From the IMG/VR virus record IMGVR_UViG_3300046714_000549, positions 1 through 23,412 of that record: a stretch of 23,412 nucleotides of DNA; one strand, 5' to 3'. Shown piece after piece: positions 2,116 to 21,624 of the stretch. The first letter of the stretch is position 1; every line of letters begins with the position of its first letter. This DNA comes from a virus. The position numbers and the translations under genes were made by a program. The notes under the pieces were generated by a model, which saw nothing but the letters and a program-made list of their open reading frames with translations, ran no database searches and had not been told where the DNA came from.

Positions 2116-2172
2116 CCAGCGTTGGGTCATTCTGCCGTGGTTCAGCGGCCGGCTGACCCCTACGATCCGGGG
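2116..2172 (+). repeat. 57-bp direct repeat, copy A (identical to 9528-9584)
   Basis: Every base from CCAGCG to CCGGGG is identical to 9528-9584, 7.4 kb away. The block contains the whole late promoter P1. Perfect identity, including the promoter spacer that differs in the other two copies, suggests recent duplication or gene conversion. Confidence 0.9.
2121..2172 (+). promoter_or_regulatory. Late promoter P1 (capsid module)
   Basis: Conserved block TTGGGTCATTCTGCCGTGG begins at 2122. The -35-like TGGTTC at 2138-2143 is followed by a 17-bp spacer and the -10-like TACGAT at 2161-2166, then CCGGGG. The GTG start of the protease/scaffold gene lies at 2175, eight bases past the -10, which predicts an essentially leaderless transcript. 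Three further copies occur at 8050, 9533 and 21333. The promoter reading is inference from conservation, spacing and position. Confidence 0.7.
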
Positions 2173-2174
2173 CA

Positions 2175-3344
2175 GTGGCCAGCGTCCAGCGATTCGACGT
2201 AGGGAGACTCGACCGCGCCAAGCGGACGGGTGCCGGCGGCGCGCGGGTACCGGCCTCCGTCGCTCGTACTGGGGTCCAGGTCTACACCGACGAGCGCGGC
2301 AACGTCGTGCGCGAGTACCGCCCGCCCGAGGCCGTGTTCGCGCCGGCCTCGCTCGAGACCCTGGGCAGCATCCCGGTCACGGTAGGGCACCCGGCAGAGG
2401 GCGTGAATCCTCGCAACTACCGGCAGCTGTCGGTGGGGCACGTCTCCGACGCACCGTCTGGGCGCCGCGCGGACGGCCCGCTCGAATGGCTCGACACCGC
2501 CGTGGTCGTCCACGACGCCGACGCGCTCCGCAAGGTCGAGTCCGGCGAGCTCGCCGAGGTGAGCATGGGCTACCTCGCCGACGTGATACCGGAGGCGGGC
2601 ATCGCCCCCGATGGGCAAGCCTACGACGCCAAGCAGACCAACATCCGTTTCAATCATCTTGCGCTGCTCAAGGATGGGCACGCGCGCGCCGGCTCGGGAG
2701 CGCGCCTGCGCCTCGACGGCCACCAGGAGCCTATCCCCATGTTCGTTCGCCACGACGACAACACCACGCCCGCGTCGCAAAAGCTCATCGTCAAGGTCGA
2801 CGGCATCGACGTGGAGAAGGGCAGCGACACCCACCTGTCCCTGCTCGACCGCAGCATCACGGCGCAGACCAAGCGCGCCGACGACGCGACCACGGCGCTC
2901 ACCGCAGCGCAGACCCTGAACGGCGAGCAGAAGGCCAAGCTCGACGCGGCCGAGCTGGAGCTCAAGACGCTCAAGGCCCAGGACGTCAACGTGCTCGTCG
3001 CCGACGAGCTCGCGTTCCGCCAGTCGATGCTGCCTGTCCTGCCCAAGGTAGACGGCAAGCCGTACGACTTCACCGGCAAGACGCGCGAGCAGGTGAAGGC
3101 CGACGCGGTCGGGCCCGCCGTGATGGCCGAGGCCGCCAAGCTCACGAGCGACGCCGAGCGCTCTGGCTTCATCGGGGCGCACCTGAAGATCAAGCTCGAC
3201 GCGGTCGGCAAGGCGCCGGCCTCCTTGCACGTGCCGTCGGTCGTCACCGACTCGACCGATCCGACCAAGCCCAAGAAGCGCCGCGACGCGCGCGCCGACG
3301 CCTTCAATGCCTCGTTCGGGGCAGGAGACACTAAAGCACCATGA
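2175..3344 (+). CDS. DUF2213-family capsid maturation protease / scaffold
   Basis: The first 180 residues match phage DUF2213 proteins: VARTGVQVY, YRPPEAVFAPASL, PVTVGHP, LSVGHV, VSMGY and NIRFNHLALLKDG in order. In this family Ser130 (VSMGY) and His161 (NHLAL) or His72 (GHP) are plausible catalytic residues of a prohead serine protease. From about residue 185 the sequence is charged and helical, with a coiled coil near 230-275 (TAAQTLNGEQKAKLDAAELE), as expected of a scaffold, so protease and scaffold appear fused. The GTG at 2175 is the only sensible start, with no ribosome site, and lies eight bases past the P1 -10 element. The stop overlaps the next start by ATGA. The family call is firm; the catalytic residues are inferred. 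Confidence 0.85.
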   Translation: MASVQRFDVGRLDRAKRTGAGGARVPASVARTGVQVYTDERGNVVREYRPPEAVFAPASLETLGSIPVTVGHPAEGVNPRNYRQLSVGHVSDAPSGRRADGPLEWLDTAVVVHDADALRKVESGELAEVSMGYLADVIPEAGIAPDGQAYDAKQTNIRFNHLALLKDGHARAGSGARLRLDGHQEPIPMFVRHDDNTTPASQKLIVKVDGIDVEKGSDTHLSLLDRSITAQTKRADDATTALTAAQTLNGEQKAKLDAAELELKTLKAQDVNVLVADELAFRQSMLPVLPKVDGKPYDFTGKTREQVKADAVGPAVMAEAAKLTSDAERSGFIGAHLKIKLDAVGKAPASLHVPSVVTDSTDPTKPKKRRDARADAFNASFGAGDTKAP

Positions 3345-4111
3345 CCTCCCTGCTCGTACCCGCGGAAACGCTCGGCCTCGCCACGGCGGGCAGCATCAGC
3401 CGACTCGGCGCCTTCACCACGACCAGGACGCTCAACCAAGCGCTGGGTCTAGCTGAGGGCCTGCTCGTGGCTCCGTCCGGGACCAAGGGTCAGGAGTGCA
3501 TCTCGCCCTCCACGGCGGCGCTCGTCCAGGCCTCGTGCGGCTGGAGCGTCTGGCGTCCGATGAGCGAGGACTTCGACACCACCCACCACTACGCCGACAA
3601 CGAGGCCGTAGCGGTGATGGAGTCCGGGCACATGCACGTGCTGGCCGAAGGCACGGTGGTTGCCGACCAGCCCGTGTATGCCCGCATCACGAGCGACGGC
3701 GGATCGAATCTCGTACTCGGCAAGGCCCGCGGCGATAGCGACGGCGGCGTGACGCTCACGACCACTGCGACGGTCGACGGTCAGTACACCGTCGGGCTCT
3801 CCAACGGCGTGGTCACCGAGTACTTCCAATTCACCGCCAGCACCAGCACCGCCACCCAGATCGTGACGGGCCTGGTCGCTGCGATCGATGCGTCCGCCAA
3901 CTTCGCCGCGACCGGCACCACCACGGCCACCATCACGGCGCAGACCGGCAAGGAAGTGAGCATCGTGTTCCTCCAGGCGCCCACCAACGCCGCCGAGCTG
4001 CTCTACGTCAAGACGGACACGCAGAAGGCCGTGCGCGTGCCCGGCGCCTTCTTCGATCAATCCCGCACGGGCGCCGGCCTGGTCGAAATCCGCCAAGCCA
4101 AGCTCAACTAG
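3341..4111 (+). CDS. Capsid cement / decoration protein with inserted add-on domain
   Basis: Between a DUF2213 scaffold and a DUF2184 capsid protein, phages of this type carry a structural cement (gp24-like) protein. The segment HYADNEAVAVMESGHMHVLA, then ADQPVYARI, has the short-beta pattern of that family (residues about 82-115), resumed near the C-terminus with LLYVKTDTQKAVRVPGAFFD. Between them, at residues about 145-215 (3773-3985), lies a Thr/Ala-rich beta domain that resembles the insertion in the sheath protein encoded at 9622. It overlaps the scaffold gene by ATGA and is probably translationally coupled. The role is supported mainly by gene order. Confidence 0.65.
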   Translation: MTSLLVPAETLGLATAGSISRLGAFTTTRTLNQALGLAEGLLVAPSGTKGQECISPSTAALVQASCGWSVWRPMSEDFDTTHHYADNEAVAVMESGHMHVLAEGTVVADQPVYARITSDGGSNLVLGKARGDSDGGVTLTTTATVDGQYTVGLSNGVVTEYFQFTASTSTATQIVTGLVAAIDASANFAATGTTTATITAQTGKEVSIVFLQAPTNAAELLYVKTDTQKAVRVPGAFFDQSRTGAGLVEIRQAKLN

Positions 4112-4143
4112 TCCGCGCCATCGCGCGTTGAACGAGGAAAACA

Positions 4144-5286
4144 ATGCAACTTCATCAGGTCGATCTCGGGTTCAACGATGGCGCCGGCGGCTCCTCGGAG
4201 GGCGGCGGTTCCGTGCTGCGGCTCGATGCCGACGGCTGCCTCGACATGGACTGGGCGCGCGCCGCGCAGGCCCGCGGGGCCTTCGACTTCTGCCGAGGAC
4301 TGCCCGACGGCTTCCGCTCGGACAGCGCGGTGCCCTTGGCACGCGACCTGAACTACGTGCTCGAGTACGTACGCGACCACTACCGGCCGCTCAAGTACGC
4401 GACCGTGCTGCAGAGCGAGCCCATCCCGGACTGGGCCGAGCGCTGGGAGATCAGCAAGATCACCGGCACGGGCTCGGTGCAGCTCTCGTCCCAGGTGGGC
4501 CGCCAGGACATCGTCACCAGTGACATCAGCCGCGACACCGCGACGGGTCGGGTGTTCGAGATCGTCAACGGCTACAAGTACTGGAATCGCGAGCTCGTGC
4601 GCGCGGCCGTCACGGGCATCAATCCACAGACCGAGCGCGCCATGATCCAGGCGCAGGCGGCCGAAGAGTTCCTCGATGGCCTGATCGCCACCGGCCTGGT
4701 CGGCACGCAGTACGGCAGCGGCGGAGCTCGGGACATGGGCCTCGGTCTCACGGGCCTCGGCAACGACGCCAACGTGGTCGCCGACGGCATCGTGACCGCC
4801 ACGACCAAGGCCTCGGGTGCCACCGGCGCCTGGACCACGGCCGTCGCCGCGGACTTCGCGCTCGTGCTCGATGATCTGCACGCCGTGGTCTCTGCCGTGT
4901 ACACGCGGTCCAAAGAGAAGCACATGGCCGACACGCTCATCATGCCCCAGGACGAGCTCAATGCGCTGGTGCGGCTGAGGCCCGCGGGCTACGCCGCCAA
5001 TGCGCTCAACACCTTCAAGGAAGAGTGGCGGGCACGGCTCGGCAAGGACGGCCGCATCATCGTCTGGGACCGCTTCGCAGCGCTCGGCACCATCAGCACG
5101 GGCCCGCGCATCGCGGCGCTCAATGCGTCGGACAAGAACGTCGCGGCCTACATCACCGGCAAGCCCTACGGCGTCGACCAGGTGCGCGAAGTCACCCGCG
5201 GGTTCGAGGCGAATGCCTCTCTCGTGACGGGCGGCTGCCGCATCCTCGACTCGTCGGGCATCGCCTACCTGGACATCGCGGCCTAA
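4144..5286 (+). CDS. Major capsid protein (DUF2184 family, HK97-like fold)
   Basis: The 380-residue protein has the DUF2184 pattern: LNYVLEYVRDHYRPLKYATVLQSEPIPDWAERWEI, then a RVFEIVNGYKYWNRELVRAAVTGI segment, an ERAMIQAQAAEEFLDGLIATGLVGTQ helix, and a P-domain-like region with ADTLIMPQDELNAL. The ATG has GAGGAA at 4134-4139, four bases upstream, one of the best ribosome sites in the window, as expected for the most abundant virion protein. Gene order (scaffold, cement, capsid, DUF4054) is the standard one. No long propeptide is evident. Confidence 0.85.
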   Translation: MQLHQVDLGFNDGAGGSSEGGGSVLRLDADGCLDMDWARAAQARGAFDFCRGLPDGFRSDSAVPLARDLNYVLEYVRDHYRPLKYATVLQSEPIPDWAERWEISKITGTGSVQLSSQVGRQDIVTSDISRDTATGRVFEIVNGYKYWNRELVRAAVTGINPQTERAMIQAQAAEEFLDGLIATGLVGTQYGSGGARDMGLGLTGLGNDANVVADGIVTATTKASGATGAWTTAVAADFALVLDDLHAVVSAVYTRSKEKHMADTLIMPQDELNALVRLRPAGYAANALNTFKEEWRARLGKDGRIIVWDRFAALGTISTGPRIAALNASDKNVAAYITGKPYGVDQVREVTRGFEANASLVTGGCRILDSSGIAYLDIAA

Positions 5287-5308
5287 CGGGGCCGCTCGGC
5301 GGTTCCGC

Positions 5309-5617
5309 ATGACGGTCAGCACGGCCAGCTTCCTCGTCGCCTTCCCGGAGTTCGCCAAGGCGAATACCGCGATGGTGACGGCGCAGCTGGCGATGGTCGA
5401 GCTCGAGGTCTCCGACAGCTTCGGCGAGTCGCGGGACCTGGCCGTCATGCTGAAGCTCGCCGACGCGCTCGCGCTCTCGCCCTGGGGCAGGGATGCCCGC
5501 GTGGTGCCGAAGGGCGTCGACAACGCGTTCAGCTCCACCTACGGCGTGCGCCTCCAGCGCATGCAGGAGGCCAACGCCGTCAGCGCAAGCCGGCTCGGTT
5601 CCCCCGAGGCCTGCTGA
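5309..5617 (+). CDS. Head-tail connector, DUF4054 family
   Basis: A 102-residue protein that starts with FLVAFPEFAKANTAMVTAQL and continues MVELEVSDSFGESRDLAVMLKLADALALSPWG, the all-helical DUF4054 pattern found after DUF2184 capsid genes. The later segment VVPKGVDNAFSSTYGV matches the usual Gly/Ser strand. It likely forms a ring between portal and neck. No clear ribosome site precedes the ATG, 22 bases after the capsid stop. The stop TGA overlaps the next ATG as TGATG. Confidence 0.8.
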   Translation: MTVSTASFLVAFPEFAKANTAMVTAQLAMVELEVSDSFGESRDLAVMLKLADALALSPWGRDARVVPKGVDNAFSSTYGVRLQRMQEANAVSASRLGSPEAC

Positions 5618-6168
5618 TGGCGACCATCCCCGAGCGCCAGGGCCGCGCGCCTGTCGCGCTGCCGCAGGGCGAGCTCGTCATCACCGTCGGCGTGCACGGC
5701 GACGACGGGGCCGAGGACCACCTGGGCGGCGGCTCCTTCGCGGACGACGGCGCGGTCGAGTCCTCCGGCCTGACCGTGGCCGAGGTGGGCGGGTTCCACG
5801 AGTTCGGCGTCTCGCCATTCCAGCTCCGGAGCGGCGCGGTGCATCCCGGCATCCCGCAGCGCAGCTTCATCCGCGCCTGGTTCGACGAGTCCCAGGCCTT
5901 CATCGCCGAGACGCTGCAGTCGCAGATGGCGCTGGTCGTGGCCGGCAAGCTCACCGCCGAGAAGGCCGGCGAGCGCATTGCGCTAGCGTTCGAGGGCAGC
6001 GTCAAGCAGCGCATCTCCCGCGGCATCCCGCCCCCGAATGCTGCGGCGACCATAGAGGCCAAGGGCTCGAGCAAGCCGCTGATTGATACCGGCCAGCTCC
6101 GCGCGGCCGTGCGCGGCCGGAGCCTCGTCACCACCAGCATGGCCCGGGTGAGCGAGGCCGCGGAATGA
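5617..6168 (+). CDS. Neck / head-completion protein (HK97 gp10-like)
   Basis: The 183-residue sequence has the hallmarks of the gp10 / virion morphogenesis group: VAEVGGFHEFGV, then PGIPQRSFIRAWFDE, then RISRGIPPPNAAATIEAKGS and PLIDTGQLRAAVRGR at the end. These motifs mark neck proteins that close the head or join head to tail. A Gly/Asp-rich loop near residues 27-48 is variable in the family. It overlaps both neighbours (TGATG, ATGA), so the neck genes are probably translated as one coupled block. Confidence 0.8.
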   Translation: MATIPERQGRAPVALPQGELVITVGVHGDDGAEDHLGGGSFADDGAVESSGLTVAEVGGFHEFGVSPFQLRSGAVHPGIPQRSFIRAWFDESQAFIAETLQSQMALVVAGKLTAEKAGERIALAFEGSVKQRISRGIPPPNAAATIEAKGSSKPLIDTGQLRAAVRGRSLVTTSMARVSEAAE

Positions 6169-6752
6169 CCGCCACCCCGACCACCTGGCTCCTGTACCGG
6201 GCGGCCATCGTCGCCGCGGTCGAGGCGGCGCTGCCCACGGCCGTGCTCGCCGAGTGCGGCGTGGCCTGGGAGGACGGGCCGCGGCCGCACGCCAGGCACC
6301 GGGTGCTTCTGTCGATCGTGAGCTCGACCTTCGATGACCGGGATTCGGCGCTCGACGAGGGCGGCGACCAGCGGCTGGAGTCGATGGCCATCGTTGTCGT
6401 GCAGCTCAAGGCCGAGTCCGCGCACGACAGCGGGGATCTAGACGCGCTCTGGCTCATCGAGCAGTGCCGCCTCGGCCTTCGCAAGGTGAGCGTGCGGGAA
6501 GCCCTCGAGACCGCCGGCATCCTCATCACGGTATTCCCGCGGAGCACCCGGAACATCGGCGGGATCGCCGACGATCACGCCATGAGCGTGCATGCTCTCG
6601 AGTTCACCACCTGCTGCACGTTCGTGCTCACGACCACCGAGGACGCGGGCCTCATCGAGCGCTTCACCGCCGAGGGCACGCTGGAAGATCCCGCGGGCCT
6701 AGACATCGACATCGAGATCGATCTGGTCGATCCAGATCCGGAGCCGGTATGA
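6165..6752 (+). CDS. Tail terminator / neck protein (gp12-like)
   Basis: Residues about 90-160 (LDALWLIEQCRLGLRKVSVREALETAGILITVFP, then SVHALEFTTCCTFVLTTTEDAGLIERF) match the neck terminator proteins of DUF3383-type myophages: a helical middle and a closing beta strand before an acidic tail. The last 25 residues are strongly acidic (DIDIEIDLVDPDPEP). By family it should cap the finished tail and join it to the neck. It overlaps its neighbours by ATGA on both sides. The call rests on pattern and position. Confidence 0.65.
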   Translation: MTATPTTWLLYRAAIVAAVEAALPTAVLAECGVAWEDGPRPHARHRVLLSIVSSTFDDRDSALDEGGDQRLESMAIVVVQLKAESAHDSGDLDALWLIEQCRLGLRKVSVREALETAGILITVFPRSTRNIGGIADDHAMSVHALEFTTCCTFVLTTTEDAGLIERFTAEGTLEDPAGLDIDIEIDLVDPDPEPV

Positions 6753-7975
6753 CCTTCGAAAGCAAGCGCCGATCCTTTGGGGCACCGTCCGCCACTCGCC
6801 CGCCGCTGCGCGGACCGAAGGGTGACAAGGGCAACCCGGGAGCAGTCGGGCCGGCAGGCGCCGATGGCGCACTCGTCGCCGGAGCGCGTCACGTGCACGA
6901 GTTCGGCGCCATCGCCCGCGGCATCGGTGACACCGTGTCCGCCGATGAGTGCACCGCCAACACGGTCGCTCTCAACGCCGCGTGCGCCGCAATATTCGCC
7001 ACCGGCGGCACGCTATTTTTCGGCGGCGGCGGCGAGACGGGCGCCGTGTACCACGTCAACGGACCGTGGGGCTTCGTGGTGACGGAGGACACCAACGTGC
7101 GGGTGACCCTCCAGGGGCTCGGCCCGTTCCCGGGCGCGCTGGTCTATAGCAACAACACCAGTCAGGAAAACTTCCGGCTTCACTCCACGATCCCCAACAT
7201 CCGAAACATCTACGTCAAGGACATGCAGTTCCTGGGCGGGCGCACGGCGGTGAGCCTGGTCCGCTGCTTTTATTCCCGGTTCGAGCGCTGCTGGTTTTGG
7301 GGCGCCACGCAGTTCGCGGTGCAGATCGCGTATGGCGGTGACCTGGTGTTTCACGGATGCTTCTTCACAGAGACCGGAGCATTTGGAGACGCGCTTTTCC
7401 TCTACGCCGCTCAAGCGCTCTTTAGCGATACGACCTGGGGCGAGGCCGGCGGCGGTGTGGTCATGTTCGACTCGGCACTCATGATCAAGGGCGGGGTATT
7501 CCAGGCCGCGTGCTTCTACCGCGGCAAGGACTACACGGACTATTGGACCACGCCCGGAACGCCGGTCACGCAAAGCCTGGCTTTTTACTACGGCGAGGAG
7601 TCGTGCATCATTGCCGCGAACTCCGACCTCGACATCGATTGCCGCATGTACGTGGTGAAGATCGGCATATCGATCGACCTCGGGCACAACATCAAGATCG
7701 CCGGGCAGTTCCTCACCGACGGCGCAGCGTTCGAGGGCTTCATCAACGTGATGCGGAACTCCGCGGTCGCGCTGAAGGTGGACGGGCAGTTCCGCTGGAA
7801 CTTCCAGACAGGCTACTTCATCAAGGAAGTGGCCGCGCTCCTACATGACTCGATGATCAACGCGCAGTTCATCAACCAGGGCGGCACCATCACTGCGCTC
7901 GGCACCTCGGCTCCGGCGCTGGTGAACCCTGGAGGGGAAAACAACCTGGTCACGACCCGCACGTTTACCGTGTGA
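6749..7975 (+). CDS. Tailspike with collagen-like stalk and right-handed beta-helix
   Basis: The start is the ATG at 6749, overlapping the previous stop by ATGA; longer upstream frames are shadows. The 408-residue product has a basic N-terminus, a collagen-like run GPKGDKGNPGAVGPAGADG (residues 22-40), then a pectate-lyase-type entry (GDTVSADECTANTVALNAAC, then TGGTLFFGGG). Aromatic short-strand coils follow (MQFLGGRTAVSLVRCFYSRF, FHGCFFTETGAFGD), typical of a parallel beta-helix. Such spikes bind or cleave surface polysaccharide; no catalytic residues can be assigned by eye. The stem-loop at 7987-8043 follows. Confidence 0.75.
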   Translation: MTFESKRRSFGAPSATRPPLRGPKGDKGNPGAVGPAGADGALVAGARHVHEFGAIARGIGDTVSADECTANTVALNAACAAIFATGGTLFFGGGGETGAVYHVNGPWGFVVTEDTNVRVTLQGLGPFPGALVYSNNTSQENFRLHSTIPNIRNIYVKDMQFLGGRTAVSLVRCFYSRFERCWFWGATQFAVQIAYGGDLVFHGCFFTETGAFGDALFLYAAQALFSDTTWGEAGGGVVMFDSALMIKGGVFQAACFYRGKDYTDYWTTPGTPVTQSLAFYYGEESCIIAANSDLDIDCRMYVVKIGISIDLGHNIKIAGQFLTDGAAFEGFINVMRNSAVALKVDGQFRWNFQTGYFIKEVAALLHDSMINAQFINQGGTITALGTSAPALVNPGGENNLVTTRTFTV

Positions 7976-7986
7976 TCCCACCAATA

Positions 7987-8043: not shown

Positions 8044-8049
8044 GCCACC

Positions 8050-8101
8050 GTTGGGTCATTCCGCCGTGGTTGCCGGGCCGGGTGCCCCTTACGATCCGGG
8101 G
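8050..8101 (+). promoter_or_regulatory. Late promoter P2 (surface-protein module)
   Basis: The upstream block differs from the other copies at one position only (TTCC instead of TTCT). TGGTTG at 8067-8072, a 17-bp spacer and TACGAT at 8090-8095 follow, then CCGGGG. The spacer sequence differs from P1 and P3 but its length is the same, as expected for promoter spacing under selection. The ATG of the next gene is at 8102, six bases past the -10, the closest of the four. Confidence 0.7.
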
Positions 8102-8674
8102 ATGCGGCACGCTGAAGCAGCCCGGGATCACAACAAGGCCGAAGGGCTCACGTTCCGGGGCCAGGGCTTCAGCGGCATGACGGGCACCATGGCGGCCGCG
8201 CTGGCCAACGCCGCGGCGGTGTTCGCGGCGCGCTATCCGCTGGTGGCCACGCACCGCTTCCTCGTGCAGTGGATCCACCTCCACTACGTGACGCTCGTCG
8301 GCTACACGGTGCCGTTCACCGCGGGCCGCTCGCTCATCTGCAAGCGCGGCAGCGGCGGGGATGCCTCGAGCGGCACGGACATCTCGGTCGTGCGCAACCA
8401 GTCGGACCTCACCTCAGAGAACCTGCTCACCGGGCAGGTCGCCACGACCGGCGCGCTCACGATGACCTCCGTCTCGTTCGAGACGCCCGTGAAGGCAAGG
8501 CTCCTGCTGGCCCAGGCGGGCAACGCGGGCAACGACTACGATGAGATCTGGACGTTCGACGAGCCGTTCATCCTCTTGCCCGGGCAGCTCCTGGGCATCC
8601 TCGCCGGGCAGGCCTTCGATGCTGCAGGGACCTGGCAGCTGAGCGTCAAGGGCGGCGGCGTCGAGGTCCCGTGA
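8102..8674 (+). CDS. Hypothetical virion surface protein, 190 aa
   Basis: A TTG start inside the promoter would give a longer frame, but the ATG at 8102 is chosen because it sits where the P2 transcript should begin. I do not recognise the family. The N-terminal 50 residues are helical and Ala-rich (GTMAAALANAAAVFAARYPL); the rest looks beta-rich (HYVTLVGYTVPFTAGRSLIC, MTSVSFETPVKARLLLAQAG, WTFDEPFILLPGQLLGILAG, WQLSVKGGGVEVP), like a jelly-roll receptor-binding or decoration protein. It is the first of a two-gene unit, overlapping the next gene by GTGA, in the fibre-gene region between neck and sheath. Confidence 0.65.
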   Translation: MRHAEAARDHNKAEGLTFRGQGFSGMTGTMAAALANAAAVFAARYPLVATHRFLVQWIHLHYVTLVGYTVPFTAGRSLICKRGSGGDASSGTDISVVRNQSDLTSENLLTGQVATTGALTMTSVSFETPVKARLLLAQAGNAGNDYDEIWTFDEPFILLPGQLLGILAGQAFDAAGTWQLSVKGGGVEVP

Positions 8675-9504
8675 GCGGGCTGTCGCTGTCGTACGGCTCG
8701 CGACCACGTCGGCGCGCACCATTCGACCCCTCGACGCTGAGCGGGATCATCGGGGCGATCCTCGACCCCGCACACGCCAGCACGGTGGTCACGGGCTTAG
8801 GCGTCTCTTCACTGGCGGACGAGCTCGGCGGCAGCCCCGCGGTGCAGTCCACGGACGGACTGCGCCCGCCCCGGGTCTCGGCCACCAACGGTGAGCTGGT
8901 GCTCCAGGGCGTCAACGACGTGCTGATGTGGCCCGCCAGCAGCGCCAACAACCAGCTCGTGACGTGGGGGTGGTGCGGGCACCTGCTGCTCGACAATCTC
9001 ACCGCTTCGAAATACCTGCTGCGCTACGGCCCCGGCGGCTCCACGGATCCGGTCGCCACCGACAGCCACAATCTGCGCGTCCTCGGAGACGAGTCGCTCT
9101 TCCTGCAGGTATTCACCGATGCAACGGGAGGGCAGGCGCGCAATGCCTCGATGGCCGGCGGCGCGCTGGACTCGACCAGCTACAAGTTCGTCACCCTGGA
9201 GATGAACCTGGCCCTGGTGGGAGAGGCCAACCAGGTCGTCATCACCGTCGAGGCCGCAGTGCAGGCGCTCAACTTCGCCAATTCGATCGGCGCCCCGGGA
9301 GCGATGCCGGCGGCCCTGCAGGGACAGCCCGGCGGCTCCGACATCATGCTGCTCAACAACCGAACGAACGCCAACCTGGCGCCCTGCATTGGGAAGCTGG
9401 GTCGGCAGTACATCCTGAAAGCGGCCATGCCTGGAGTGACGCGGGGCCTGCTCACGACAGCCGCCCGAGAGTATTTGAGGCAGCTGCGGCGCCCCGTCGC
9501 GTGA
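8671..9504 (+). CDS. Probable lectin-fold (LamG-like) virion protein, 277 aa
   Basis: GTG start overlapping the preceding stop as GTGA. After a basic N-terminus and a linker (residues 1-85), the sequence resembles a concanavalin A / LamG-like sandwich: QLVTWGWCGHLLLDNLTASK, NLRVLGDESLFLQVFTDATG, SYKFVTLEMNLALVGEANQV, SDIMLLNNRTNANLAPCIGK, then LGRQYILKAAM. This pattern is common in phage adhesins that bind glycans. The fold call is by eye and moderately supported. It is the last gene before promoter P3. Confidence 0.6.
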   Translation: MSGLSLSYGSRPRRRAPFDPSTLSGIIGAILDPAHASTVVTGLGVSSLADELGGSPAVQSTDGLRPPRVSATNGELVLQGVNDVLMWPASSANNQLVTWGWCGHLLLDNLTASKYLLRYGPGGSTDPVATDSHNLRVLGDESLFLQVFTDATGGQARNASMAGGALDSTSYKFVTLEMNLALVGEANQVVITVEAAVQALNFANSIGAPGAMPAALQGQPGGSDIMLLNNRTNANLAPCIGKLGRQYILKAAMPGVTRGLLTTAAREYLRQLRRPVA

Positions 9505-9527
9505 GCACTCCTGGTACGAACGTCGCT

Positions 9528-9584
9528 CCAGCGTTGGGTCATTCTGCCGTGGTTCAGCGGCCGGCTGACCCCTACGATCCGGGG
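9528..9584 (+). repeat. 57-bp direct repeat, copy B (identical to 2116-2172)
   Basis: Identical to 2116-2172 and carries promoter P3. Sequence identity stops right at the CCGGGG after the -10 element, so the duplicated or converted unit is essentially the promoter itself. Confidence 0.9.
9533..9584 (+). promoter_or_regulatory. Late promoter P3 (tail module)
   Basis: Same elements as P1: conserved block from 9534, TGGTTC at 9550-9555, 17-bp spacer, TACGAT at 9573-9578, CCGGGG. The nearest start, an ATG at 9587, is eight bases past the -10 and opens a minicistron rather than the sheath gene at 9622. Confidence 0.7.
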
Positions 9585-9586
9585 TG

Positions 9587-9622
9587 ATGCGTACCCAATC
9601 CGCACGGCTCCGGGTGACCTAA
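9587..9622 (+). CDS. Leader minicistron, 11 aa, overlapping the sheath start
   Basis: ATG at 9587 encodes MRTQSARLRVT and ends at TAA 9620-9622, which shares its last base with the sheath ATG (TAATG). The start lies at the expected 5' end of the P3 transcript, as the true starts do after P1, P2 and P4, and it begins ATGCG like the P2 and P4 genes. This supports translation, with ribosomes handed to the sheath by termination-reinitiation. The peptide itself need have no function. It is too short for codon statistics. Confidence 0.5.
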   Translation: MRTQSARLRVT

Positions 9623-10974
9623 TGTCGGGTATCGCGGACATCATCGCGGTCTCCATCACGATCCAGGACTCGGCACCCAAAGCCGTCGAGTTCGATACGA
9701 TCGCGATCATGTGCAAGGCCCCCTTCGCGGGCGGGCGGCTCTACCCGATTACCCCCCAGGGCCTGGCTGCGATGGTGACCGACACCTTCAGCACGAGCTC
9801 GCGCGCGTACCAAATCATGGGGCGCATGGCGGGGCAGGTGGGCGGCGCTGCCGAGGCCTACGTCTGGGGCAGGACGGCGCAGCAGACGCAGCTGCTGGAG
9901 CTCATCCCGGACATCACCGTCCTCGCCGTGGGCTCGGTGATCGCGTTTTCGATCTCCTACGCTGGGGTTACCTCCAGCATCTCGGTGACGGTGGCCGCCA
10001 ACACGGTCGACGCCATCTGCGATCTGCTGGTGACGGCCATCGGCGCCAGCGCCGCCGGCATCGCCGGCATCGTGGCGACTCCCGACAATGCGACGGCCAC
10101 CAAGATCACCTTGAGCAACGCCGTGCCCGGCACCTTCGTGCAGCTGGACGGCTTCCCCAAGAGCATCATGCTCGAGGACGTCTCGGTCGCCGGCACGAGC
10201 TTCGCCAACGAACTGGCCGCCATGAAGGCCGATCTCGGAGAGGCGGTCTACGGCCTGCTCATCGATGGCTTCTCGCAGACCGAGATCGCCCTGGCTGCCG
10301 CCTTCGCTGAAGCCAACGGCATGATCTTCCTCGGCCAGTCCGCGGACAACGAGATCACCACCTCGGACACCGACGACATCGCGACGACCATGAAGACCGC
10401 CGGCTACAACCGGAGTGCGGTCTGCTTCTCCCGCTACATGAGCGGAGACTTCGCAGCCGCGCTCCTGGGGTACCAGCTCGGCCAGACGCCGGGCTCCTCC
10501 AACTGGGCCATGACGCAGCTGTCGGGTGTCTCGGCCGACGTCCTCACGAGTGCCGCTCACACCATCGCTCGCGGCAAGCGGGCGCTGACCTACACGACCG
10601 ATCGCGGCGAGGCCCACACCTGGGACGGGTTTGCGGCGTCGGGTCGCTTCTTCGATCTGACGCACGGCGCGGACGCCTTGAAGGCGGACATGGAGACGCG
10701 CTGCTACCAGGTGTTCCTCAACGCCAAGAAGGTGCCCTTCAACGCGACCGGCGTGGCGATGCTGGAGGCCCCGATGCGCGCTGCGCTCACGGCGGCCGAG
10801 GGCAACGTCTCCGAGGCGGGGCTCATCGAACCCGGCTGGACCGTGACGATGCCCAACCTGGTTGGGTACTCGGCGGTGGACAAGGCCGCGCGCCATCTGC
10901 GCACGGCCTACTTCACGGCGGTGCTCACGGGCGCCGTCAACAAGCTCACCGTGGCCGGGACCCTCACGCTATGA
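9622..10974 (+). CDS. Tail sheath protein (DUF3383 family)
   Basis: The 450-residue protein has the DUF3383 sheath pattern in its C-terminal two thirds: SRYMSGDFAAALLGYQLGQT, then NWAMTQLSGV, WDGFAASGRFFDLTHGADAL, and ETRCYQVFLNAKKVPFNATG, ending with RTAYFTAVLTGAVNKLTVAG. Residues about 100-177 (9922-10153) are an inserted Ala/Thr-rich beta domain resembling the one in the cement protein at 3773-3985. The sheath contracts to drive the tube into the cell. Only a partial ribosome site (GGTGA, 9613-9617) precedes the ATG, so coupling to the leader minicistron is likely. It overlaps the next gene by ATGA. Confidence 0.85.
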   Translation: MSGIADIIAVSITIQDSAPKAVEFDTIAIMCKAPFAGGRLYPITPQGLAAMVTDTFSTSSRAYQIMGRMAGQVGGAAEAYVWGRTAQQTQLLELIPDITVLAVGSVIAFSISYAGVTSSISVTVAANTVDAICDLLVTAIGASAAGIAGIVATPDNATATKITLSNAVPGTFVQLDGFPKSIMLEDVSVAGTSFANELAAMKADLGEAVYGLLIDGFSQTEIALAAAFAEANGMIFLGQSADNEITTSDTDDIATTMKTAGYNRSAVCFSRYMSGDFAAALLGYQLGQTPGSSNWAMTQLSGVSADVLTSAAHTIARGKRALTYTTDRGEAHTWDGFAASGRFFDLTHGADALKADMETRCYQVFLNAKKVPFNATGVAMLEAPMRAALTAAEGNVSEAGLIEPGWTVTMPNLVGYSAVDKAARHLRTAYFTAVLTGAVNKLTVAGTLTL

Positions 10975-11216
10975 GCGCCGACCACATCCTGCAGTTCTTT
11001 GCGCACGAGCACCTGCCGCCGCATCTGGCGGCGGTGAGCAGGCCGTTCTGCGAACTGGCGCACGCCATCGTCTCCGGCGACAACATCGTCGAGAGCGGCA
11101 GCGTGACGTTCGGTCCGCCGCTGCCGCGCAACCCCGAGCGCACCGTCGCGCTGCGCAAGCTGCTCGAGTCCAAAGACGCCGCGGTCCGAGCCCTCATCGC
11201 CAAGGACGTCACGTGA
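10971..11216 (+). CDS. Small helical-hairpin protein, possible Acb2/Tad1-like nucleotide sponge
   Basis: 81 residues with two evident helices: HLPPHLAAVSRPFCELAHAI and NPERTVALRKLLESKDAAVR, joined by a loop (VSGDNIVESGSVTFGPPLPR). The pattern FxHxxLPxHL...F..LA ... LPxNPERTVALRKLLExKDAAVRA recalls small phage proteins that databases group with the Acb2/Tad1 hairpin domain, some members of which bind cyclic nucleotide immune signals (anti-CBASS, anti-Thoeris). The loop here seems longer than I would expect. The gene sits between sheath and tube, overlapping both (ATGA, GTGA), where a structural role is also possible. The helical hairpin is clear; the sponge function is a hypothesis. Confidence 0.6.
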   Translation: MSADHILQFFAHEHLPPHLAAVSRPFCELAHAIVSGDNIVESGSVTFGPPLPRNPERTVALRKLLESKDAAVRALIAKDVT

Positions 11217-11635: not shown

Positions 11636-11638
11636 GCC

Positions 11639-14090: not shown

Positions 14091-14094
14091 GCTG

Positions 14095-16093: not shown

Positions 16094-16100
16094 GGCGCAC

Positions 16101-16406
16101 ATGAACACCCAAGTCATTCCCATCGTGCAGCAGGGCGGGCACGTGCATGCCCTCGGGCACCGGGTCGCGCTCGACAACGGCGGGGTCGCCGAGCTCAAGG
16201 CGCGCTGCCTCGAGACCCTGGCGAAGCTCAAGGATCCGCCGGATGAAATCCGCTTCCAGTTGCCGCTCGTGTCCGTCGCGGTGCTGGCCGCCGCGCTGGC
16301 CCCGAGCGAGCGCGCGGCCTCGCCCTCCGACCGGCACCCGGCGCCCCAGGTCCAGCCGCCTCCACTGGCCGCGGCAGCAGGGCAGAAGGGGCGCAAGCGC
16401 GGCTAA
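16101..16406 (+). CDS. Hypothetical protein between hub and spike genes, 101 aa
   Basis: ATG at 16101 with GAGG at 16092-16095. I do not recognise it. The N-terminal half is polar with two His (GGHVHALGHRVALDNGG), then a helix (VAELKARCLETLAKLKDPPD), a hydrophobic run LPLVSVAVLAAAL near residues 54-66, and a disordered Pro/Ala-rich basic tail ending GQKGRKRG. The stop overlaps the spike ATG as TAATG, so it is expressed with the baseplate genes. It could be an assembly factor; nothing more can be said. Confidence 0.6.
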   Translation: MNTQVIPIVQQGGHVHALGHRVALDNGGVAELKARCLETLAKLKDPPDEIRFQLPLVSVAVLAAALAPSERAASPSDRHPAPQVQPPPLAAAAGQKGRKRG

Positions 16407-16933: not shown

Positions 16934-17424
16934 CTCTATCGGCGGCCACCTTAGAGTCCGAGCTCGGCTCGCTCACGCCGACCATCAGCGAAGCCACGGC
17001 CATCACTCGGCTGGTCGACGCCTGGGAGGAGTACTTCGGAGACGCCACGGTGAGCGGCGCTCCCCTCGTGCCGGCCAGCATCAGCGGCGGGCTCAGTGCC
17101 ATGGCAGCGGCGCTGGTGGGGCTCTCGGCGCCCGGCGCCGCTGCTGCCAAGATCGCCGCGGGCACGAGCGCCTTCTGGTCGACCCAGGCGGCGCTGGCGA
17201 CCGCCATGTGGGTGACGGCCCCCGTGGTGCTGGTGCCTCCGATCGTCCCGCCCCCGGGGCTGGCGTCGCTCTCGAGCACGCTCGCCGCAGTGTTTGCTGC
17301 CGGCCCCTATGACTTCGACGACGCCATGGGCCACATCGCCAGCGCCTGGCATGCTGCCTCCACGGGCGCCCTCGTACCGGGCTCGGTGCCGCCGGCGCCG
17401 CCCGCTCCCCTGGTGGTGACATGA
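16930..17424 (+). CDS. Ala-rich hypothetical tail-region protein, 164 aa
   Basis: The start is the ATG at 16930 (ATGA overlap with the spike stop). The sequence is largely Ala, Gly, Val and Pro: ISGGLSAMAAALVGLSAPGA, AAKIAAGTSAFWSTQAALAT, then VLVPPIVPPPGLASLSSTLA AVFAAG and a Pro-rich end. Proteins of this composition occur beside the spike gene in related phages, but I know no function. The hydrophobic helices could contact the membrane or pack in the baseplate. Coding is supported by tight overlaps on both sides. Confidence 0.65.
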   Translation: MTLSAATLESELGSLTPTISEATAITRLVDAWEEYFGDATVSGAPLVPASISGGLSAMAAALVGLSAPGAAAAKIAAGTSAFWSTQAALATAMWVTAPVVLVPPIVPPPGLASLSSTLAAVFAAGPYDFDDAMGHIASAWHAASTGALVPGSVPPAPPAPLVVT

Positions 17425-17561
17425 TCTGGGTGCACCTGTACAAGGACGGCAAGCTCCTGCTCATCTGCCCGGCAACCGAGGCGCAGATGTGGGGCTTCCT
17501 CGAGTGCGGGTACTGGTGGGAGTACGTGCTCGTTCCGGAGGAGGTGTTGCCATGCCCGTGA
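17421..17561 (+). CDS. Trp/Tyr-rich mini-protein, 46 aa
   Basis: Begins MIWVHLYKDGKLLLICPATE and ends with ECGYWWEYVLVPEEVLPCP. It overlaps the previous gene by ATGA and the gp25 gene by ten bases. Four Trp and three Tyr in 46 residues, plus three Cys, suggest a compact folded domain rather than a random frame. Its 3' end also supplies the strong ribosome site for the next gene. Family unknown. Confidence 0.55.
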   Translation: MIWVHLYKDGKLLLICPATEAQMWGFLECGYWWEYVLVPEEVLPCP

Positions 17562-17908
17562 TCGGTGACCTGCAACTGTCCGACGATGGGCGAGAGATCC
17601 TACTCACGCGCGGCGCTGCGATGGCGCTCCAGCAGATCCAGGTCGGCGCTCAGATCTGGACGGGCACGATCTCCTGGGACCCGGACGCGGGCCTGCCGAT
17701 GCTTGGAACGATCCTGGTGAAGGGCCCCGACTTCCGGGTCATCACGGAGATCTTTCGCTCGTTCCTGCTCGACACCGACGGTGTCGTCTCGGTCGACGAG
17801 CTCTCGGTGCAACTCGAGCGCGCAACGCGCGAGCTCACCGTCCGCTTTCGGGTAACCTGCGAGGACGGCGAGAGCGCCCAGGATGAGGTCGCTTTCGCGA
17901 TCGCTTGA
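17552..17908 (+). CDS. Baseplate wedge protein (gp25/gpW-like), 118 aa
   Basis: ATG at 17552 preceded by GGAGGAGGTG at 17537-17546, the strongest ribosome site in the window, which fixes the start. The sequence shows the gp25 core: ALQQIQVGAQIWTGTISWDP, then GLPMLGTILVKGPDFRVITE IFRSFLLDTDGVVSVDELSV and RELTVRFRVTCEDGE. In other contractile systems gp25 nucleates sheath assembly at the baseplate. It lies directly before the J-like gene, as usual. Confidence 0.8.
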   Translation: MPVIGDLQLSDDGREILLTRGAAMALQQIQVGAQIWTGTISWDPDAGLPMLGTILVKGPDFRVITEIFRSFLLDTDGVVSVDELSVQLERATRELTVRFRVTCEDGESAQDEVAFAIA

Positions 17909-17917
17909 AGGAACACG

Positions 17918-19072
17918 ATGCCCGTTACCGACACCGGCTACACGCCTCGCACGCTCGACGCGGTGCTCACCAGCATCCAGGGATTTCTACGGGACAAGAT
18001 CTCGGCGAAGCTCACGCTCACCGAGCGCACCGTCCTCGGCAATGTCTCGAACCTCATGGCCGACCACGTCGAGCAAATCGAGGCGCTGGCGCTCGAGTGT
18101 TACCATGCCTTCGATCCGGACAACGCCAGCGACGATCGGCAGGTCGCTCTCTCTAATCTGACCGGCGTCCCGCGGCGCGGCCTGAAAAAAGGCCTGGTGA
18201 CGATGAGCCTAGACATCGACGCCTCGCAGTCCTACGCGCCGGGCGACATCGCGATGCACGTGATCGACGAGCCGACGAATCGCTGGCTCAACCGAGACAC
18301 CGTGGTCACCACGACCGCGGGCCTGTACCCGGCCGTGTTCGAGTCGGAGTTCGCGGGCTCGGCCGCCATTGCCGAGGCCCTTACACTCACGGTCATCGCA
18401 ACGCCGGTCTCTGGTCTCAACTCCGGCACGAACATTCTGGCCGCCACCCCGGGCGAGGACATCGAGGCGATCCCGGCGCTGCGCATTCGGCGGGAGGGCG
18501 CGGTATCGATCGGCGGGTCCCGCACCCGCGGCGCCATCCGGGCCAAGCTCTTGCTGATCGAGGGCGTGCTCTCGGCCGAGGTGTTCGAGAATATCTCCAA
18601 CGCGGTCGACGCTGATGGCATCGGGCCGCACGGCATTCGGGCCATCGTCTGGGACGGCTCGCCCGCAGCGGCCGATGACGACGCGATCGCTCAGGTCATT
18701 CACGACCACGGGGCAGAGGGCATCCTGGCGCAGGGCGCCTTCTCGGGCACGGCCCAGGACGAGCAGCTGGGGCCGGTCACCAAGTACTTCGATCGCGCGA
18801 CGGCCTCCAACATCACCGTCGCGGTCGACATCGAGAGCGCCACCGGGGTCGCCATCGACGACGTGAAGGCCGCCATCTTGGCAGCGATGCCGACGCGGGT
18901 CGGACGAGAGGTGACGTTCCACAAGCTCGCCGGCAGCGTCTTCAGCGTGCCCGGCGTGGACGACTATGTGACCTTCACCATCAACGCGGGCACGTCCGAT
19001 CTGGCCGCGGTGCAGAGCACCATCTACCTCCTGGACGAGTCGGACATCACCGTCACCGGGGATGTGAGCTGA
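17918..19072 (+). CDS. Baseplate J-like protein, 384 aa
   Basis: Clear gpJ family features: a helical N-terminus (LDAVLTSIQGFLRDKISAKL), then ALALECYHAFDPDNASDDRQVALSNLTGVPR, then GSAAIAEALTLTVIATPVSGLNSGTNI, PALRIRREGAVSIGGSRTRGAIRAKLLLIEGV, and the final AVDIESATGV domain. In these wedges it links hub and tail fibres. Ribosome site AAGGAA nine bases before the ATG region. The product length is typical. Confidence 0.9.
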   Translation: MPVTDTGYTPRTLDAVLTSIQGFLRDKISAKLTLTERTVLGNVSNLMADHVEQIEALALECYHAFDPDNASDDRQVALSNLTGVPRRGLKKGLVTMSLDIDASQSYAPGDIAMHVIDEPTNRWLNRDTVVTTTAGLYPAVFESEFAGSAAIAEALTLTVIATPVSGLNSGTNILAATPGEDIEAIPALRIRREGAVSIGGSRTRGAIRAKLLLIEGVLSAEVFENISNAVDADGIGPHGIRAIVWDGSPAAADDDAIAQVIHDHGAEGILAQGAFSGTAQDEQLGPVTKYFDRATASNITVAVDIESATGVAIDDVKAAILAAMPTRVGREVTFHKLAGSVFSVPGVDDYVTFTINAGTSDLAAVQSTIYLLDESDITVTGDVS

Positions 19073-19075
19073 GCG

Positions 19076-19744
19076 ATGGCCGAGGGCACGACCGCGATCG
19101 ACACCGCGCTCTCGACCGAGGGCGACGCCGACGGCACGGACCTCATCGAGTTCACCCCGGGCACGTTCGTGCACGCGGGCGACGAGCCGAGCGGGCCGCT
19201 CGAGTACATCCGCGACCACGAGGAGATTTCCGCACGCAAGCTAGCCCCGCCCTTCTGGGGCAAGCCGTTCGTGGCCTGGGTGCTCCTGGCCTTCATGCGC
19301 GAGATCCAAGCGCTCGAGGACACCTTCTGGGACATCCTCGAGAGCCGCACGCTGGAGAACGCGGACATGACCCGGCTGAAGGTGCTGGGCAAGATCGTCG
19401 GGCAGCCCCGGCACGGGTTCGATCTGGAGAGCTATCGGCTGCTCATCGAGGCCCGGGGCCTGGCCAACGTGAGCAAGGGTCGGGCGAGCGATCTCTTGGC
19501 CGTGCTGACGCTCCTGCTCGGCGAGGGCGACTTCGTTCTATTGGCGATCGGCAACGCCACCCTCTACGTGAGCGCGCTCGCTCCGGTGGGCGACAACGGC
19601 CTGGCGATGGTCACCGAGATCTTGCCCGACACCCGAAGCGCAGGCGTCGGCCTGCAGTTCCTGTATTCGGAGAGCCCGGACGTTTTCATCTGGGGCGACG
19701 ACTGGGGCTACCCCGAGGAATGGGGCTCCGTCCGGAGCCTGTAA
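19076..19744 (+). CDS. DUF2612-like baseplate wedge / fibre-connector protein, 222 aa
   Basis: Gene order J, DUF2612/gpI-like, fibre is standard. The core reads MREIQALEDTFWDILESRTLENADMTRLKVLGKIVGQPRHGFDLESYRLLIEARGLANVSKGRASDLLAVLTLLLG split over residues about 75-150, with the IVGxxRxGxxxxxYRxxI pattern of the family. The C-terminal part is beta-like and ends with a Trp-rich acidic segment (FIWGDDWGYPEEWGSV), likely the fibre contact. It starts three bases after the J stop. Confidence 0.7.
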   Translation: MAEGTTAIDTALSTEGDADGTDLIEFTPGTFVHAGDEPSGPLEYIRDHEEISARKLAPPFWGKPFVAWVLLAFMREIQALEDTFWDILESRTLENADMTRLKVLGKIVGQPRHGFDLESYRLLIEARGLANVSKGRASDLLAVLTLLLGEGDFVLLAIGNATLYVSALAPVGDNGLAMVTEILPDTRSAGVGLQFLYSESPDVFIWGDDWGYPEEWGSVRSL

Positions 19745-19754
19745 GGAAGTCACG

Positions 19755-20891
19755 ATGACCACCAGCTTGCAGCTACCCCGCCCCTGGGCGACCAACGTCA
19801 ACTACTCGAGCGGCCCGGACACGGGCACGCCGACCAAGGTCGATCCGGCGAGTGACGCCAACGGCTTCATCAGCGGATCGGTCGCGTCGGCGGCGCACGT
19901 CAACTACCACGTCGCCCAGCTCACCCGGGCCGCACGCAGGGCGCTGGCCCTCAAGCTCTGCAAGCCGCGCCGGCTCGGCCTGACCTCGGACCAGGCAGGC
20001 GGCATCGGTGTGTGCTCGATCGGACGGGGTCTGCCTGCGATCGTCGGCAACGGCCACAGCGCTGGCGTGCCGCGCGCCTTCGACGGAGACATCAATCTCG
20101 GCGGGGTGGTGGCCTCCATCACGGGAGCGGTCAACGGCGCGGCGGTCAACGGGTCGAGCCGCATCGTGCTGGTCGGCGGTGGCGGCAACCGCAGCTGCTT
20201 CAGCGACAACGGCGGCACCGCGTGGTCCGCCGGTGGCGACCTCGGTGGCACCGGGCTGGACGTCATCTATAACAGCACGTTTTCTCGATTCCAGGCGGGT
20301 TACTCCGGACACATGCGCTACAGCTCCGACGCAACGGCGTGGACTGATGTGGTGGTCGCCGGGTACCTTGGCAAAGGTATCGGGCTGTCATCGGTTCCCA
20401 ATGGTCGCGTGACCGTCGTGCAGACCGGAGTGAGCCCTGTGACCGCGTCCAAGTCTGCCAACGGAGGCACTTCGTGGGCCGCCGCAGGCACCATCGCCAA
20501 CGCTGCTAGCATCACTGCCGGCAGCGTTGGTGGAGCAGGACTCGACAACATCTATCATGCGGGAGTGCTCAGCGGCGGCTCCATACAGATCAGCTCAACA
20601 CCCGACGGTGTGACGTGGACTGTGGTGAACACACTCGCCCCCGTCGCCTCCAACAACTACACCGCCGCGCTCATTCGGCAGTGCCCGGACACCGGCGTGC
20701 TCTTCCTCCTGACCGGGCTGGCGACGGGTACGGTGGCTATCCTGGCGAGCCTGGACGGAGGCGCCACCTGGACCGAGCAGGTGTACGCGCCGGTGACGGC
20801 GGCCGCCTGCTACGGCGTCGCCCACGGTCGCATCTTCATCCTCAACGCTGCGGGTGAACTGTTCGCGTCCGACGGCGCTGGCTGGGAATGA
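19755..20891 (+). CDS. Tail fibre with Asp-box (BNR-like) repeats, 378 aa
   Basis: ATG with AAGGAAG at 19744-19750. After an N-terminal attachment region (residues 1-70, including VNYHVAQLTRAARRALALK), the protein has about five Asp-box motifs of the form S-x-D-x-G-x-x-W: SDNGGTAW, SSDATAW, SANGGTSW, STPDGVTW and SLDGGATW, spaced 40-60 residues apart. These mark a beta-propeller of the sialidase/BNR type. Asp boxes are structural, so no enzyme activity follows. Its position after the baseplate genes makes it the receptor-binding fibre. Confidence 0.75.
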   Translation: MTTSLQLPRPWATNVNYSSGPDTGTPTKVDPASDANGFISGSVASAAHVNYHVAQLTRAARRALALKLCKPRRLGLTSDQAGGIGVCSIGRGLPAIVGNGHSAGVPRAFDGDINLGGVVASITGAVNGAAVNGSSRIVLVGGGGNRSCFSDNGGTAWSAGGDLGGTGLDVIYNSTFSRFQAGYSGHMRYSSDATAWTDVVVAGYLGKGIGLSSVPNGRVTVVQTGVSPVTASKSANGGTSWAAAGTIANAASITAGSVGGAGLDNIYHAGVLSGGSIQISSTPDGVTWTVVNTLAPVASNNYTAALIRQCPDTGVLFLLTGLATGTVAILASLDGGATWTEQVYAPVTAAACYGVAHGRIFILNAAGELFASDGAGWE

Positions 20892-20927
20892 AGAAAACAC
20901 CATGGGAGAGAAACGCGATGCTGACCA

Positions 20928-21212
20928 ATGAACGGACCGAACGCACCGATCACCGACCGCGATCTGTTATTCGTCGCGCTCTCGGGTGGCTTGTGGTGGA
21001 TCAAGCTCACCTGGCAGCTCTGGCGCAGGACTCGGTACTTGGAAGAGGCGCTACTGCGCGAACAGCTGAAACGTTTCGAGCTCGAGAGGACGCACACCGC
21101 GCAGTGGAACGACAAGCAGAGGAGGCTGCTCGAGGCTTTCTTGCGCGGACCGAAATCCACTCTGCGCGAGCTGGTGAGCGATACCGAGACGGAGTACGAA
21201 ACGAAGCCGTGA
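20928..21212 (+). CDS. Small protein with hydrophobic segment and coiled coil, 94 aa
   Basis: MNGPNAPITDRD is followed by a hydrophobic Trp-rich stretch (LLFVALSGGLWWIKLTWQLW, residues 13-32) and a charged coiled coil (YLEEALLREQLKRFELERTH). Arg residues right after the hydrophobic segment argue against a simple N-in spanin topology. The ATG lacks a ribosome site but overlaps the stop of a nine-codon frame at 20902-20931 (MGEKRDADQ), so coupling is possible. A longer overlapping frame that starts earlier is a shadow up to 21208. Function unknown; the coiled-coil membrane design fits the lysis region. Confidence 0.6.
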   Translation: MNGPNAPITDRDLLFVALSGGLWWIKLTWQLWRRTRYLEEALLREQLKRFELERTHTAQWNDKQRRLLEAFLRGPKSTLRELVSDTETEYETKP

Positions 21213-21325
21213 CGGGCGTGCTACAGCGCACCCGGCTGGAAATCGAGCAAGAGGATCTGCTGGCTTTCCCGCTGGAACGGCTCGCCGCGGACGCTCCCGG
21301 GCTCGACGTCTCGCCTCACCCGTAG
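21209..21325 (+). CDS. Mini-protein, 38 aa
   Basis: GTG overlapping the preceding stop as GTGA; reads MTGVLQRTRLEIEQEDLLAF and ends ADAPGLDVSPHP. Third codon positions are mostly G or C, as in the neighbours, and the tight overlap supports translation, but the product is short and unknown. A small hairpin CACCC/GGGTG (21317-21330) overlaps its end, just before promoter P4. Confidence 0.4.
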   Translation: MTGVLQRTRLEIEQEDLLAFPLERLAADAPGLDVSPHP

Positions 21326-21332
21326 GGGTGTA

Positions 21333-21378
21333 GTTGGGTCATTCTGCCGTGGTTGGCCCCGAGGGCCACCCGTAGCTT
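21333..21378 (+). promoter_or_regulatory. Late promoter P4 (lysis module)
   Basis: The upstream block is identical to P1 and P3 through GTGGTT. TGGTTG at 21350-21355, again a 17-bp spacer, then TAGCTT at 21373-21378 as a diverged -10. The CCGGGG that follows the other -10 elements is missing, so this is the weakest or most diverged copy. The lipoprotein ATG is at 21386, seven bases past the -10. Confidence 0.65.
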
Positions 21379-21385
21379 GAAGTGC

Positions 21386-21622
21386 ATGCGCAAGCTCCCC
21401 TGGCTAGTTGCACTCGGTGGGACTGTGGTTGTGAGCACCGCTTGCACGCCCGCGCTCGTACAGTGCAGGGCGGAAGCTGTGGCATTTTTGCCTGCCGATC
21501 CCGGGCAGCTCACGCCCTACGACTTGGAAGATTTAGTCGGCCGATTGAACGCGTGCGAGGCGCCCGCCGCTCCCCTGCCTCCGGCCTCGCCGGTGACTAC
21601 GCCCGACGCGGGAGCCCCGTAG
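21386..21622 (+). CDS. Lipoprotein, probable outer-membrane spanin (Rz1-like), 78 aa
   Basis: ATG at 21386 is selected because it lies at the expected P4 transcript start and yields a clean signal peptide: MRK, hydrophobic core, then STAC with Cys20 as the likely lipidated residue. An upstream in-frame start would lie inside the promoter. The mature part is about 58 residues with two further Cys and a Pro/Ala-rich C-terminus (APAAPLPPASPVTTPDAGAP), the composition of Rz1-type o-spanins. It heads the lysis cassette. The lipobox is imperfect at position -3 (Ser). Confidence 0.6.
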   Translation: MRKLPWLVALGGTVVVSTACTPALVQCRAEAVAFLPADPGQLTPYDLEDLVGRLNACEAPAAPLPPASPVTTPDAGAP

Positions 21623-21624
21623 AG

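Follow-up and report, generated by a model that had tools for sequence, protein, structure and literature searches.

Four sites in a fragment of phage DNA, heading its head, cassette, tail and lysis units, quite probably act as activator-dependent late promoters whose first genes would be read from near-leaderless mRNAs. From the sequence and its conservation we infer that these sites are promoters, that they are used late, that an activator binds them and where transcription starts; near-leaderless late mRNAs are a prediction on the same grounds. The fragment, here called the window, is the entire IMG/VR record IMGVR_UViG_3300046714_000549, a linear piece of 23.4 kb (23,412 nt) with 68% GC. 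Among annotated phages the window has no DNA match, and its protein matches all lie below 60% identity. The window itself lacks the early region. In relative G002 this region follows the lysis genes and encodes a tyrosine integrase, a DnaC-like loader and a PD-(D/E)XK nuclease, and in G004 and G005 it is joined to terminase and portal. Because relatives carry an early region with an integrase, the source of the window looks like a temperate myophage that carries an integrase and infects uncultured bacteria, not like a Mu-like transposing phage.

Four copies of a two-part element

The block TTGGGTCATTCTGCCGTGG occurs exactly at 2122, 9534 and 21334 and with one mismatch (T to C at base 12) at 8051, always on the plus strand. 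Each copy is followed by TGGTT(C/G), 17 nt and then the hexamer TACGAT (three copies) or TAGCTT (the copy at 21334). In copy 1 the block CGTTGGGTCATTCTGCC spans 2120–2136 (+), which is −53 to −37 when the hexamer is counted as −12 to −7; GTGGTT follows at 2137–2142, and the hexamer TACGAT at 2161–2166 (+) is directly preceded by CC at −15/−14. Copy 2, with the mismatched block CGTTGGGTCATTCCGCC, lies at 8049–8065 (+), continues into GTGGTT at 8066–8071 and has its TACGAT at 8090–8095 (+). Copy 3 (block 9532–9548, TACGAT 9573–9578, both +) is the same as copy 1 through the hexamer, and copy 4 combines the block AGTTGGGTCATTCTGCC at 21332–21348 (+) with GTGGTT at 21349–21354 and TAGCTT at 21373–21378 (+).

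A search of both strands of the window with up to three mismatches found no further copy of TTGGGTCATTCTGCCGTGG, and 100 dinucleotide shuffles produced none. A weight matrix built from the copies scores them at about 50 and the rest of the window at no more than 2.4. Since the window is only a fragment of a phage genome, the absence of other copies applies to that fragment. The mismatch search thus recovers what an earlier note on this DNA had described, namely four coding-strand copies with a single mismatch and no other in the window, and TGGTT(C/G), the 17-nt spacing and the two hexamers are seen in all four. Its remark that the spacer sequence varies does not hold throughout, as copies 1 and 3 are identical across 57 bp, spacer included. 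The spacers at 2141–2155, 9553–9567 and 21353–21367 each contain a short inverted repeat that differs in sequence from copy to copy; it is weak against shuffles and its form is not conserved.

The fragment begins with a MuF-type head protein and a winged-helix-turn-helix (wHTH) gene. Copy 1 then precedes the head maturation protease (DUF2213, PHROG 530; 2175–3344, +), whose GTG start lies 8 nt past the hexamer and which heads a head operon with the major head protein (4144–5286); neck genes and a putative fibre follow. Copy 2 precedes a two-gene cassette (8102–9504, +; genes 8102–8674 and 8671–9504), with an ATG 6 nt past the hexamer. Copy 3 stands ahead of the tail unit, which runs from the tail sheath (DUF3383, PHROG 205; 9622–10974, +), its first structural gene, through the tape measure to the baseplate. 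The first start codon after copy 3, an ATG 8 nt past the hexamer, belongs to a leader ORF at 9587–9622 (+) that encodes MRTQSARLRVT and ends in a TAA overlapping the sheath ATG (TAATG). Similar leaders occur at the sheath in L140 (MRTPYAAAT) and in G003 (VIRTPYALPPVGAP), each followed by a stop. Copy 4 precedes a small lipoprotein-like, o-spanin-like gene (21386–21622, +; ATG 7 nt past the hexamer, lipobox read from the sequence) that heads the lysis unit with its CHAP endolysin (22017–22619). Family matches therefore bear out the earlier view that each copy heads a functional unit for capsid, tail and lysis, but the supposed surface proteins are the cassette, which has no family match. In G005 the two-gene cassette lies between portal and MuF, with no block there, which suggests that it moves from site to site.

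Two further frames lie near the lysis genes. A GTG-start frame of 212 codons (21382–22020) overlaps the o-spanin-like gene in another frame and is also open in G001, G002 and L130; either the two are nested or the open frame reflects the high GC content. Past the lysis genes, a small ribbon-helix-helix (Arc/NikA-like) protein is encoded at 22989–23222 (−) and is conserved in G002.

The element keeps its places in related phages

Searching viral contigs for the exact block identified two relatives, and a looser core identified six more contigs, of which one, L130, was judged real and adds one more lysis copy. The other five, with GC contents of 36–50%, were judged to be chance matches. Across the near-relative records, G001–G006 and L130, all of them fragments, the block recurs 24 nt ahead of a TACGAT or TAGCTT hexamer: before the protease in G004, G005 and G006, before the cassette in G003, before the sheath in G003 and G006, and before the o-spanin in G001, G002 and L130. 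The sheath of L140 is preceded by a diverged block with TACGAT. In G004 and G005 the same block also stands before the portal gene, followed there by other sequence and, one base further on, by the hexamer CAAACT or CAGAAT; the block is the sole part that these portal copies share with the protease copies. We found no convincing copies elsewhere in the near-relative records, on the other strand or in early regions, that of G002 covering 15 kb. The motif search in related phages that the earlier note had proposed thus places the block at matching positions.

Within a genome, all copies have the same or nearly the same left half of the block, but this half differs between genomes: TTGGGTCA in the window, TTAAGYCG in G003, TTAGGGYA in G004 and G005, and TTAGGTTG in G006. 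This is the pattern expected if the block were fitted to a factor. Gene conversion could produce the same likeness within a genome, as the 57-bp identity of copies 1 and 3 illustrates.

Two relatives carry something else at these places. In G007 (43 kb, sheath 57% identical), a canonical promoter, TTGACC-N17-TAAGGT, stands before the protease and before a lipoprotein-sheath unit, the only two places in the record where it occurs; we found no block, wHTH or sigma factor in G007. In G010, TGACTCCCCATTG occurs twice (L147:2167–2179; G010 11156–11168), at the protease and spanin/sheath places and 28 nt before poor hexamers, and the wHTH gene is kept. These copies are suggestive of a further genome-specific block type.

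We also scanned 84,980 bacterial and archaeal genomes for TTCTGCCGTGGTT-N15-19-TACGAT. None of the eight matches includes the block's left half, and two fall in what is apparently one coding sequence; we take them as chance and not as host sites, and hence the scan found no host.

Conservation outlines a probable promoter footprint next to the start codon

Alignment of 14 copies shows conservation of GTTRRGNYRTTCTGCC at −52 to −37, CC at −15/−14 and TANNNT at −12 to −7, with G-52, T-51, G-47, T-42, C-41, C-37, G-33, CC at −15/−14, T-12, A-11 and T-7 invariant. Between orthologous sites the hexamer is 100% identical and the block 60–100%, compared with 28–33% for the upstream flank (cassette, sheath and protease) and 39–63% for the spacer (39–50% at cassette and sheath). 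Flanks and spacer that are close to random around a block and hexamer that are held constant point to a promoter footprint.

The downstream part resembles the −10 region of sigma70 promoters, TANNNT, in all 14 copies; the hexamers that depart from TACGAT are TAGCTT at lysis and the two at the portal, which differ from TANNNT. There is no conserved −35 near TTGACA. TGGTT(C/G) stands in its place and the TGGTT-N17-hexamer arrangement is constant in 10 copies, but in the G006 and portal copies TGGTT is replaced by other sequence while the block and −10 region are kept. The core of the element is thus the block plus CCNTANNNT. The earlier reading of a sigma70-type promoter with an added activator site stands for the −10 region and the upstream block, but not for TGGTT as an obligatory −35. 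Within the block we found no dyad beyond the level of shuffles in any of the four variants; an 8-bp direct repeat is present in one of the four, and repeats are otherwise not significant. A search of Rfam returned nothing past threshold for the element.

The distance from hexamer to start codon is 6–8 nt in 16 of 16 copies, and the late mRNAs are therefore predicted to be near-leaderless, with leaders of 0–2 nt. G-rich runs ahead of the start codons, as read from the sequence, lie too close for a good Shine-Dalgarno interaction; computed duplex energies were non-discriminating.

We propose that a phage-encoded DNA-binding factor would occupy the block at −52 to −37 and let RNA polymerase use the −10 region in the absence of a proper −35. 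The predicted start of transcription, about 6–8 nt past the hexamer, falls on the start codon or no more than about 2 nt from it, and the mRNA from which each late unit's first gene is read would thus be leaderless or near-leaderless. If one factor acts on all four sites, the head, cassette, tail and lysis units would be switched on together. The late-promoter reading draws on the recurrence of the element in matching gene contexts in G001–G006 and L130, and on the canonical promoters that G007 has at two matching sites. Both also favor the idea, put forward in the earlier note, of a late-promoter family that heads virion modules and answers to one shared factor through the upstream block.

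Candidate factors

The wHTH gene upstream of the protease is our leading, if tentative, candidate for the factor that reads the block. It encodes a basic, LexA-like protein of 91 aa (1834–2109, +) directly upstream of copy 1, and it matches the family LexA_DNA_bind exactly at the cut-off. The gene adjoins the protease promoter in all four block-carrying records that cover this place (the window, G004, G005 and G006) and also in G010. An ordinary sigma70-like promoter, TTGAAA-N17-TAGACT (1604–1632, +), lies ahead of a small ORF at 1667 and the wHTH gene; it is found before this operon in the window and G004 but not in G005 or G006. An AlphaFold model of the wHTH protein (pLDDT 60) was too weak for a fold search.

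A second possibility, which we consider slightly less probable, is a Fis-type HTH or a FliA-like sigma factor reading into a Fis-type HTH, the two taken jointly. Among the near relatives the early region is covered only in G002 and G005, and both carry a FliA/WhiG-type sigma there, in frames at L028:7694–9130 (−) and L033:5428–6891 (−). Family searches place Sigma70 region 4 past its cut-off in both records and match FliA_WhiG (E 8e-23 and 7e-24) and, in the same frame, the Fis-type HTH_8 (E 3e-10 and 6e-8); the nearest solved chains are FliA/WhiG, and the FliA_WhiG scores are far under that model's cut-off. Such sigmas are rare, with one weak match among 50,697 phage records. In both relatives the sigma frame stays open without a stop into the Fis-type HTH, but the linking stretch shows the evolutionary pattern of a coding sequence in a different frame. 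The HTH may instead belong to a gene of its own that starts at a GTG overlapping the preceding stop. Even by itself, the Fis-type HTH could be the activator. The AlphaFold model of the sigma-HTH frame has a pLDDT of 50, with values mostly above 70 confined to sigma region 2, the HTH and the C-terminal end, and it likewise could not support a fold search. G002 also has a second short Fis-type HTH ORF near the sigma frame and a weakly matched, sigma-4-like small protein at 17777–18148. That the factor is something we have not seen is rather unlikely.

These frames raise the best-surviving alternative, one form of the phage-altered polymerase that the earlier note had mentioned, in which a phage FliA/WhiG-like sigma, with or without the same-frame Fis-type HTH, redirects host polymerase, the HTH reading the block and the sigma the −10. 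This is a special case of activator-dependent promoters with the factor named, so its probability overlaps with that of our main explanation; we regard it as unlikely. It accords with the family matches in G002 and G005 and with the absence of the sigma from G007, whose promoters are plain, and it has a precedent in the Escherichia coli aer promoter, where an activator centred at −49.5 works with sigma28 (PMC2859248). The DNA itself fits less well. As a −10, TANNNT is of the primary-sigma kind, an argument against the late sites being read by a FliA-like sigma, and it differs from the sigma28 −10 GCCGATAA; of the full sigma28 (FliA) promoter, TAAAGTTT-N11-GCCGATAA, the elements share CGAT alone, the conserved TAAA of its −35 being absent and the −35 zone not conserved. 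The divergent lysis and portal hexamers, the low FliA_WhiG scores, the coverage of the region in just two records and the coding signal in another frame also count against it. Its most specific form is improbable; here a sigma with a built-in Fis-type HTH would recognise the −10 together with the −52 to −37 block and alone turn host polymerase to leaderless late promoters.

Other readings of the element

Activator-dependent late promoters must also be weighed against ordinary sigma70 promoters, with TGGTT(C/G) as the −35, incidental upstream bases and host polymerase sufficient. The constant TGGTT-N17-hexamer arrangement, a −10 of the primary-sigma type and the sigma70-like promoters at matching places in G007 would all suit such promoters. 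We nevertheless judge them improbable, since TGGTT is a poor match to the −35 consensus and is lost in the G006 and portal copies while the upstream 15–16 bp stay, and since the upstream block is conserved about as strongly as the hexamer.

The position of every copy just ahead of a start codon invites comparison with the start-associated sequences (SAS/ESAS) of Cluster K mycobacteriophages, short repeats upstream of selected start codons that number 11–19 copies per genome (PMC3203893), and hence with translation elements acting on RNA. Small hairpins in the spacers (combined z −3.9, from copies that are not independent) would agree with this. The elements differ from SAS in sequence, copy number and architecture: read directly, they lack the 13-bp SAS GGGATAGGAGCCC, they number 1–4 per record with one per late unit, and their conservation, at −52 to −37 and −12 to −7 around a near-random spacer, has the form of a promoter footprint. 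With canonical promoters at the matching sites of G007 and no Rfam match past threshold, a role in translation is very unlikely.

That the repeats mark module borders and permit cassette exchange is the least probable reading of all: copies 2 and 3 flank a cassette placed elsewhere in G005 and copies 1 and 3 share 57 identical bp, but no mobile cassette lies next to the lysis or protease copies and recombination needs neither two conserved parts nor fixed spacing nor a fixed start-codon distance, although it may be a side effect of the element.

Comparison with known late promoters

The arrangement proposed here is closest to phages Mu and P2. The Mu late promoters Plys, PI, PP and Pmom depend on the activator C and lack a good −35 (PMC4461284); here too we propose four late promoters under one activator, and neither system has a good −35. 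At Mu Pm, Mor binds a dyad at −51 to −36 (PMC4287176), nearly the span of our block at −52 to −37. The block fits the position of the Mor/C dyad, near −43.5 in Mu, but no dyad was found in the four variants, and none of 11 records has a Mor/C family protein (PF08765) at E ≤ 1, an absence that is not final because the records are fragments. The phages differ further in that relative G002 has a tyrosine integrase, lysis here follows the tail genes, and the start codon is predicted at about +1 to +3. In phage P2, also a temperate myophage, four late promoters head the late operons under one activator, Ogr (PMC3931495), as we propose here. The P2 motif TGT-N12-ACA occurs twice in the window, at 9623 (+) and 13773 (−), neither time upstream of a copy, and the Ogr/Delta zinc finger (PF04606) has no match past the cut-off in 11 records, the weak one in G004 having E 0.007.

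The staphylococcal Ltr/RinA regulators, small basic proteins encoded directly upstream of their promoter (PMC13123087), offer a parallel in gene layout for the candidate wHTH gene, which is placed in the same way. Ltr/RinA drives one long late transcript, whereas several promoters share a common block here.

Taken together, the element makes a probable late regulon readable from sequence in a phage group without a close annotated relative, and it yields a two-part promoter, predicted start sites and a few candidate factors. If the late genes are leaderless and the block changes with its regulator, these phages would form a natural series for the co-evolution of an activator and its site, with the plain-promoter relative G007 as the control.
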